A stretch of DNA of 55,839 nucleotides from positions 89,689 to 145,527 of the forward strand of contig VBOW01000022.1 in assembly GCA_005893275.1 (NCBI GenBank), in the 5' to 3' direction. The stretch comes from Candidatus Eisenbacteria bacterium. GTDB taxonomy: Bacteria > Eisenbacteria > RBG-16-71-46 > SZUA-252. Both the position numbers and the translations under genes were made by a program. Under the pieces are notes generated by a model. The model was not told the origin of the DNA. It made no database searches and saw nothing but the letters and a program-made list of their open reading frames with translations. Shown one piece after another: positions 1-1,210 of this stretch. The first letter of the stretch is position 1; every line of letters starts with the position of its first letter.

Positions 1-19
1 GACTGCGCACCTTACCCAT
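1..19 (-). CDS. start of an unidentified gene, cut by the window edge
   Basis: Only the first six codons are present on the minus strand, reading MGKVRS from the ATG at 19-17. A full AGGAGGTG ribosome binding site lies at 32-25 with a 5-base gap to the ATG. A TTGACA-17-TATCGT promoter ends about 20 bases upstream of the start. Start, ribosome site and promoter agree, so a real gene is very likely. Six residues do not allow a product call; a short basic N-terminus would suit a ribosomal or nucleic-acid-binding protein, but that is a guess. Confidence 0.55.
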
Positions 20-40
20 TTGGACACCTCCTATGCGGAA

Positions 41-69
41 ACGATACGACTCTGCCTCTCGCGTGTCAA
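41..69 (-). promoter_or_regulatory. sigma70-type promoter, minus strand
   Basis: On the minus strand a perfect -35 TTGACA (69-64) is followed by a 17-base spacer and a -10 TATCGT (46-41). Transcription would begin near 34, giving a leader of about 15 bases that carries the AGGAGGTG site of the gene starting at 19. It stands back to back with the promoter at 115-143. Confidence 0.65.
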
Positions 70-90
70 GGCTTAAGTGAGGTCCGAAAA

Positions 91-105
91 GAGGCTGGCA
101 GCCTC
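91..105. promoter_or_regulatory. 15-bp perfect palindrome between divergent promoters
   Basis: GAGGCTG-G-CAGCCTC has two perfect 7-bp arms around one central base. It sits between the two outward-facing -35 boxes, ten bases upstream of the plus-strand TTGACA. The position suits a dimeric repressor or activator site acting on one or both promoters, but no regulator family can be named from the sequence. Confidence 0.4.
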
Positions 106-114
106 CTAATTGCC

Positions 115-143
115 TTGACAAGCCGGGGCGTTTGTGGTAGGGT
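115..143 (+). promoter_or_regulatory. sigma70-type promoter, plus strand
   Basis: A perfect -35 TTGACA (115-120) is followed by a 17-base spacer and a -10 TAGGGT (138-143). Transcription would start near 150 and read through the hairpin at 167-196 and the tRNA-like element at 207-279 towards the transposase. The strong consensus is typical of stable-RNA genes. Confidence 0.65.
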
Positions 144-166
144 TATGTCTGTTGGGATAAGAAGAT

Positions 167-196
167 GGCCGTCCACGGTTGCCGCCGTGAACGGCC
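167..196 (+). ncRNA. leader hairpin upstream of the tRNA-like element
   Basis: GGCCGT (167-172) pairs with ACGGCC (191-196), and CACGG (174-178) pairs with CCGTG (185-189), leaving a single C/A mismatch and a 6-base loop. This 11-bp stem lies between the promoter at 115-143 and the tRNA-like element. No T-run follows, so it is not an intrinsic terminator; it may be a processing signal or a folded RNA domain. Confidence 0.4.
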
Positions 197-206
197 AGTA
201 GTGCAA

Positions 207-279
207 GCCCCTGTAGCTCAAATAGATAGAGCCACCGCTAGCTACGTGTGAGATGCGGGTGCAAGACCCGCCAGGGGCA
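207..279 (+). tRNA. degenerate tRNA-like sequence
   Basis: Exactly 73 bases fold as a tRNA. The acceptor stem GCCCCTG/CAGGGGC has 7 Watson-Crick pairs, the D stem is GCTC/GAGC with a 9-base loop, and the T stem is GCGGG/CCCGC with loop TGCAAGA. The anticodon arm is poor: CACCG (233-237) pairs with CG-GTG (245-250) only if T247 is bulged, giving loop CTAGCTA with anticodon AGC. The D loop lacks the GG pair (AG instead) and the T loop has TG instead of TT, so the two loops changed together. No CCA is encoded. The outer arms resemble a bacterial tRNA-Arg. It could be a decayed tRNA or a tRNA mimic; a normal decoding tRNA is unlikely. Confidence 0.4.
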
Positions 280-343
280 CACCTAATATACACCGGATTC
301 CCCAAATCGTCAAGTTTCAATGGGGTATCCATGGGAGTAATCC

Positions 344-1165
344 ATGAATCGGCTCTCCGTCGATAGACGCGCCCAGATTGTCCGAGTGCTCGTAGAGGGA
401 AACTCGATCCGCGCCACCTGCCGCATGACCGATACCACCAAGGGAACCGTGCTCAAGCTCCTAGTGGACCTTGGCCGTGCGTGTTTCGAGTACCAGGACA
501 AGACCCTACGGAACCTGCCATGCAAGCGGCTCCAGCTGGACGAGATTTGGAGCTTCGTCGGCGTGAAGGAGAAGAACCGCCCGGAGCGTGAGCGCGGCAA
601 CTATGGACGCGGGGACGTTTGGACGTGGACGGCGCTCTGTGCCGATACGAAGGTTGTCCCGTCTTGGCTCGTATCGTCGCGGGACGCGGGAGCGGCCACG
701 GAATTCTGCCAGGACTTGGCGGGCCGTCTCTCCGGGCGCGTGCAGATCACCACCGACGGCCACCGCGCCTATTTGAACGCGGTCGAGGATGCGTTCGGAA
801 CGGACGTGGATTACGCGGTGCTCCAAAAGCTGTACGGGGCCGTTCCTGACGAGGTTCGGTACAGCCCGGCCAAATGCATCGGATGCCGCCGCGATTCGAT
901 CACTGGCGATCCTGACCCCCGCCATGTCTCCACGAGCTACGTGGAACGCCAGAATCTGACCATGCGCATGTCAATGCGACGGTTCACGCGGTTGACCAAT
1001 GCCTTCTCAAAGAAGCTGGAGAACCTAGAGGCTGCGGTTGCCCTGCATTTCATGTGGTACAACTTTGGGCGGATTCACCAGACATTGCGGGTCACGCCTG
1101 CGATGGAGGCCGGAGTCGCGGATCACGTCTGGGCGGCGGAAGAAATCGTGGGCCTCTTAGAGTGA
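344..1165 (+). CDS. IS1-family DDE transposase
   Basis: This 273-residue protein would catalyse cut-and-paste or copy-out movement of its insertion sequence. An N-terminal helix-turn-helix-like segment (about residues 10-45) precedes a catalytic domain with the IS1-type order D66 (in QLDEIWSFVG), D138 (in TTDGH) and E201 (in YVERQN). A C-terminal block with the MWYNFGRIHQTL signature follows. A CxxC pair at 178-181 lies inside the catalytic domain. It is one continuous frame, unlike classical two-frame IS1. The start is backed by GGGAG six bases upstream. All catalytic residues are present, so it looks intact. Its codon use and GC are lower than those of the genes after 1211, in line with transfer. 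Confidence 0.88.
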   Translation: MNRLSVDRRAQIVRVLVEGNSIRATCRMTDTTKGTVLKLLVDLGRACFEYQDKTLRNLPCKRLQLDEIWSFVGVKEKNRPERERGNYGRGDVWTWTALCADTKVVPSWLVSSRDAGAATEFCQDLAGRLSGRVQITTDGHRAYLNAVEDAFGTDVDYAVLQKLYGAVPDEVRYSPAKCIGCRRDSITGDPDPRHVSTSYVERQNLTMRMSMRRFTRLTNAFSKKLENLEAAVALHFMWYNFGRIHQTLRVTPAMEAGVADHVWAAEEIVGLLE

Positions 1166-1180
1166 AAACGACCCACTACC
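1163..1180 (+). repeat. candidate right terminal inverted repeat of the IS
   Basis: The 18 bases overlap the transposase stop codon and end in CCCACTACC. The reverse complement starts GGTAGTGGGTCG, a form suited to an IS1-type end. Only a weak partner (GGTAG at 136) is visible in this window. Confidence 0.4.
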
Positions 1181-1210
1181 CCGTCCCGCTCCACCGGAGA
1201 TGTTCGACCC

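Follow-up and report, generated by a model that had tools for sequence, protein, structure and literature searches.

We analyzed a 55,839-nucleotide stretch of DNA from a Candidatus Eisenbacteria bacterium (contig VBOW01000022.1; hereafter, the window), which begins inside a 2,037-bp IS1-like transposon. A degenerate tRNA gene lies wholly within this transposon, upstream of the transposase gene, and tRNA genes carried by other elements of the same family combine the body of one isotype with the anticodon of another. The features of the locus, in window coordinates, are as follows:

1..1180, no strand: right 1,180 bp of the 2,037-bp IS1-like transposon (inverted-repeat pair, 8-bp target-site duplication, empty site)
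1..19, minus strand: N-terminal codons of a divergent cargo gene that looks winged-helix-like on inspection
41..69, minus strand: promoter of the divergent cargo gene, TTGACA-17-TATCGT, 10/12 matches (promoter scan)
115..143, plus strand: candidate promoter TTGACA-17-TAGGGT for a hairpin-tRNA(-transposase) transcript (read from the sequence; sub-threshold in the scan)
166..197, plus strand: 13-bp GC-rich hairpin directly 5′ of the tRNA (folding, terminator scan)
207..279, plus strand: degenerate tRNA gene with an Arg-like body (A20)
344..1165, plus strand: IS1-like DDE transposase, 273 amino acids (profile searches, residue conservation)
1163..1180, minus strand: right terminal inverted repeat, GGTAGTGGGTCGTTTTCA read inward
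1181..1188, no strand: right copy of the target-site duplication CCGTCCCG

The left end of the transposon lies outside the window (G000:C22:88832, or L082:8833 in our locus collection) and reads GGTAGTGGGTCGTTTT. The inverted repeats begin GGTAGTGGGTCG, and the inverted copy of the left end finishes at window position 1180. An exact 8-bp target duplication, CCGTCCCG, borders the transposon on either side, and the empty site, with the flanks joined without the transposon, was found in two congeneric genomes. The transposon is recently inserted. Because its transposase is single-copy in the window's genome and was not found in the 46 other genomes of the phylum that were tested, we conclude that it was acquired horizontally. 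The original prediction, made from the sequence alone, had placed the tRNA-like fold in a mobile element next to a transposase, and both points held. It had also offered a decayed tRNA used as insertion site, which we rejected: the target is intergenic and contains no tRNA, and the window tRNA is inside the transposon. The transposase residues D66, D138 and E201 are kept in 124-126 of 126 relatives; the protein scores 24.8 bits with PF03400, barely over the cut-off of 24.1, and 57.8 with NF033558 against a cut-off of 100.

A permissive Rfam search matched positions 207-279 across the whole length of the tRNA model (RF00005) with 39.3 bits, the gathering score being 29 (E = 1.8e-6), and this covariance-model scan bore out the predicted tRNA-like fold with perfect acceptor and T stems; the D stem is perfect as well. 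When the whole genome was searched, the sequence ranked last of 42 tRNA matches, still above the cut-off (E = 9e-7), and R1, a tRNA model constructed from 27 tRNAs of the genome that contains the window, scored it at 44.1 bits. ARAGORN and the Rfam filters at default settings did not detect it; relaxed ARAGORN did, flagging the anticodon stem as defective and giving AGCT, four bases, as the anticodon. The anticodon region, CTAGCTAC, can be read as GCU, or as AGC with one stem U bulged. Aligned to a relative (L252), the loop is TAGCTAC, with anticodon GCU and A33 replacing U33. Only 3 of the 5 anticodon-stem pairs form in the GCU register, and A18 stands for G18 in the D-loop and G55 for U55 in the T-loop, so that a score above the RF00005 cut-off goes together with loss of U33, G18, U55 and the 5-bp anticodon stem. 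With the anticodon masked, the nearest body is tRNA-Arg. Skipping-rope RNA (RF02924), which has a tRNA-like shape and a weak local similarity (GAGAUGCGGG), was discarded as an identity, since it reached 19.7 bits against a cut-off of 36.7 and RF00005 fits far better.

Because U33, G18 and U55 are lost, the window tRNA is predicted to be inactive in decoding, and it probably no longer decodes. The changes at G18 and U55 had been taken as the mark of a maintained mimic. Together with A33 and the 3/5 stem, they are instead losses of features needed for decoding and present in almost every relative. This copy therefore has a degenerate look, and we judge it to be decayed or decoding-dead within an otherwise young insertion. 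The genome already encodes an ordinary tRNA-Ser(GCU) and an ordinary tRNA-Arg(UCU), and the host therefore has no need of it.

Transposase homologues were collected from genome contigs, viral contigs, an inverted-repeat pattern scan and 1,190 further genomes, which gave 253 unique relatives or loci in many bacterial phyla. The repeat GGTAGTGGGTCAGTTTGA bounded 150 unique elements with a median length of 3.0 kb, 125 of them with an exact target-site duplication. Using the own-genome tRNA model, ARAGORN and a T-arm plus acceptor pattern, we found a tRNA at no fewer than 26 of the 253 transposase loci and in a few elements where no transposase was detected, L178 among them. The tRNA usually lies 50-250 nucleotides upstream of the transposase gene on the same strand; at the 253 loci, the strict pattern returned 18 upstream sense, 0 upstream antisense and 3 downstream matches, of which at least two are outside the element. 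Carriage was scattered on a tree of 132 transposase proteins (14 changes for 16 carriers, the tree search being incomplete), about as many changes as in shuffles, and we rejected the idea that the tRNA had been inherited once, together with the transposase. Because most transposase copies have no tRNA, the tRNA is a recurrent cargo rather than a constant component of the element's structure, contrary to the structural role suggested at the outset. In L004 (2787-2860) and L058 (2640-2746), irregular second tRNA-like sequences stand in tandem beside the main tRNA, so that some elements hold small tRNA clusters. Four distant members of the transposase family (L515, L516, L517 and L518) carry tRNA-like genes with a reduced D-arm, 60-130 nucleotides upstream of the transposase gene. 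The loop reads UUA in L515, L516 and L518, which suggests that one lineage has conserved an unusual tRNA of the ochre type.

We then compared the body of each element tRNA with its anticodon. The anticodon loop was masked and the nearest body sought among 114 host tRNAs of five genomes, a test that recovers the right isotype across genomes for 102 of the 114. Body isotype and anticodon agreed in none of the 18 element tRNAs of the first set. In a second, independent sample, 8 of 8 element tRNAs were mismatched and one tRNA outside an element was matched. Pooled, 0/26 element tRNAs match, compared with 102/114 host tRNAs (Fisher p = 2e-19). The tRNAs that flank elements were mostly matched, about 9 of 12 by our own count over both samples. 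Arg-like class I bodies carry GCU or ACU (L013, L018, L054, L072, L196, L252, L463, L503, L512 and the window); Ser-type bodies carry UAA, CAA, UAG, UCG, UAU or GGU, that is, Leu, Ile, Arg or Thr anticodons; Leu-type bodies carry UUA (ochre stop), AGA (Ser) or UGG (Pro); and Glu-type bodies carry AGU (Thr) or UGC (Ala). The ochre-type anticodon UUA occurs in L086 and L095 and, by loop reading, in three of the distant members described above. In all ten Arg-like tRNAs A20, C35 and U36 are invariant, and only position 34 is altered, to a purine. A20, C35 and U36 are known Arg determinants, and the Ser and Leu synthetases are independent of the anticodon. This pattern is the one expected if charging were preserved and the codon changed.

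The fold of these tRNAs is also conserved. In a MAFFT alignment of the ten Arg-like tRNAs, not fitted to structure, 96.7% of cells pair and 17 of 21 pairs are altered on both sides. The covariation score was 0.80, compared with 0.20 for shuffled alignments and 0.22 for the best slid one, and 61 stem cells were double-changed versus 19 in shuffles, which are the compensatory changes that the original prediction had looked to relatives for. G-U pairs outnumber A-C pairs by 13 to 1, pointing to a plus-strand RNA, and 26 of 28 loops retain U33. Judged from these alignments, selection acts on the structure of the sense-strand tRNA. All in all, the fold, the placement in a mobile element and the stem covariation stood, whereas the maintained mimic, the insertion site and a fixed structural role did not.

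Region 148-343 was more stably folded than all 200 shuffles (z = -3.5), with the predicted hairpin at 166-197, which on the minus strand reads as an intrinsic terminator with a U-rich tail. A stable hairpin stands 5′ of the tRNA in 21 of 26 elements (z below -2, mononucleotide shuffles), and it may be a terminator in common with the upstream gene. The strong promoter that had been claimed was upheld in part: its TTGACA (115-120) is perfect, whereas the -10 element TAGGGT is weak (3/6 matches) and fails the promoter scan. The scan reports two minus-strand promoters instead, at 69-41 and at 313-285, the latter with 10/12 matches. Promoter 285-313 and terminator 166-197 together would yield a short transcript antisense to the window tRNA. 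L178, a 1.1-kb element without a transposase, contains a 13-nucleotide perfect complement of its tRNA anticodon arm (CCTTCCAAGGACT) on the minus strand, about 60 nucleotides downstream of the tRNA, and further similarity to D-arm antisense in the same region. L178 was the only case of antisense pairing between a tRNA and its own element, and this reading was set aside.

We consider it fairly probable that the element tRNAs are transposon-borne mistranslating tRNAs, carried as cargo by this IS1-like family; their charging, decoding and benefit we infer from sequence. The body would keep one isotype, and thus its amino acid, while the anticodon would read another codon. Since the isotype of the body is kept with a foreign anticodon, the body should determine which amino acid is loaded, and the tRNAs should miscode, acting as missense or ochre suppressors that deliver this amino acid to the wrong codon. 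A tRNA of the window type, Arg-like with GCU, would place Arg at the AGC/AGU Ser codons. The tRNA appears to occupy the slot that holds toxin-antitoxin-like genes in other elements, and the possible benefit would be a tolerated mistranslation, acting as selfish or stress-adaptive cargo. More tentatively, and with somewhat less conviction, we propose that identity-swapped tRNAs entered a pan-bacterial IS1-like family repeatedly, each time independently, placing Arg at AGY Ser codons, Ser at Leu codons, Leu at UAA, and Glu at Thr or Ala codons. They would be a programmed cargo that mistranslates the cell's proteome or that of rival elements.

Several observations weigh against mistranslating cargo. 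The window copy is itself degenerate. Transposase genes show no significant codon bias for their own tRNA, so that no link to transposase expression is visible. The isotype of the body is firm for the Ser, Leu and Glu types and weaker for several class I bodies, the nearest body being Met, Asp, Thr or Cys in L013, L018, L196, L498, L503 and L512.

An unlikely alternative is that the tRNA is a non-decoding module, a punctuation mark for RNase P/Z or a leader or attenuator, which controls transcription or processing around the transposase gene and whose anticodon can drift freely. Its position, mostly on the same strand and just upstream of the transposase gene, the hairpin directly 5′ of it and the retention of stems with loss of decoding positions in the window copy are all consistent with such a module. 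However, the near-constant U33 and the recurrent anticodons GCU, ACU and UUA would not survive drift, most transposase genes have their own promoter between the tRNA and the ATG, and about 90% of the elements have no tRNA. That host tRNA genes were captured by accident and then decayed, which would account for the lost universal positions of the window copy and for the patchy carriage on the transposase tree, is disfavoured and improbable: captured tRNAs should match their anticodons, which none of the 26 does, and the relatives' stems are perfect, with compensatory changes, while the changes centre on the anticodon. It is very improbable that the tRNA recodes the element's own genes, as the UUA anticodons might suggest for a transposase or cargo in need of a suppressor. 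Codons cognate to the element tRNA stand at conserved standard residues of the transposase; no meaningful TAA read-through open reading frame was found in L086 or L095; and transposase codons read by the own tRNA were neither avoided nor significantly enriched (z = 1.8, permutation p = 0.13). We thus rejected both recoding of the transposase and TAA read-through, and the element genes show no sign of dependence on altered decoding. Equally remote is an antisense-tRNA small RNA made from the minus strand, from promoter 313-285 to the hairpin terminator, since that promoter, the terminator and the L178 complement are opposed by the G-U excess and by tRNA invariants on the plus strand.

Returning to the elements that carry mismatched tRNAs, the usual order among those examined is a small Lys/Gly-rich protein, variable cargo and then the transposase. 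The variable cargo includes coiled-coil/winged-helix-like genes, and toxin-antitoxin-like genes (Gp49-like with HTH_3, IrrE-like, a SocA-like antitoxin and NYN) likewise stand before the transposase. The 2,037-bp transposon of the window also carries a short basic open reading frame and two minus-strand ones; its divergent cargo gene has no Pfam match and is broken by an assembly gap of 10 N immediately outside the window on its left side (L082:9680-9689). A conserved promoter, TTGACaatgcTTGAgcggTCAAgcaTAATnnnnnnATG, with an internal palindrome lies upstream of most transposase genes (for example in L073, L062 and L048), and because it ends so near the ATG the transposase mRNA is probably leaderless and autoregulated. 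Family elements adjoin host or phage tRNA genes in L114, L008, L048 and L027, and the one in L114 sits within an array of phage tRNAs, which may point to a degree of target preference. Elements of 0.6-1.1 kb bounded by the inverted repeats and apparently without a transposase (L170, L176, L178, L187, L243 and L257) may be non-autonomous relatives.

A handful of chromosomal examples of genetically encoded mistranslation are known in bacteria, and neither a carrier nor a reason has so far been available for allo-tRNAs and their odd anticodons. If our reading is right, a mobile family that repeatedly acquires mismatched tRNAs would account for their spread, and a set of at least 26 loci would make selection for mistranslation testable.

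Like the IS1 family, the window element has ends starting with GGT, terminal inverted repeats and a target duplication within the 8-9 bp of that family, and its DDE transposase appears related to that of IS1. Unlike IS1 elements, which are about 0.8 kb long with two frameshifted reading frames, members of this family have one long transposase frame, lengths of 1.3-4.6 kb and variable passenger genes, and the transposase falls below the NCBIfam IS1 cut-off. Mistranslation is our best reading by analogy with tRNA-ProX and allo-tRNAs. Allo-tRNAs were reportedly described by Mukai et al. in 2017. In Streptomyces, tRNA-ProX with ProRSx represents dual-identity tRNAs whose dedicated mistranslation was demonstrated in E. 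coli, where it was toxic, and which gave a benefit under stress (PMC10365949). Element tRNAs likewise join one isotype's body to another's anticodon; whereas tRNA-ProX always has a Pro body beside a ProRS paralogue, they have several bodies, none of them Pro, no aminoacyl synthetase in the cargo examined, and a location inside IS1-like transposons. Allo-tRNAs resemble the element tRNAs in that they have Ser-type bodies with many non-Ser anticodons, UAU, Leu and ochre among them, and an association with transposons or toxin-antitoxin genes had been suggested for them before (PMC7609411). Allo-tRNAs have an 8/4 or 9/3 acceptor branch and element tRNAs fold as 7/5, although ARAGORN favours 7/5 and 8/4 forms may be missed. 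In contrast to allo-tRNAs, the element set includes Arg-, Leu- and Glu-type bodies, and its carrier element is identified.
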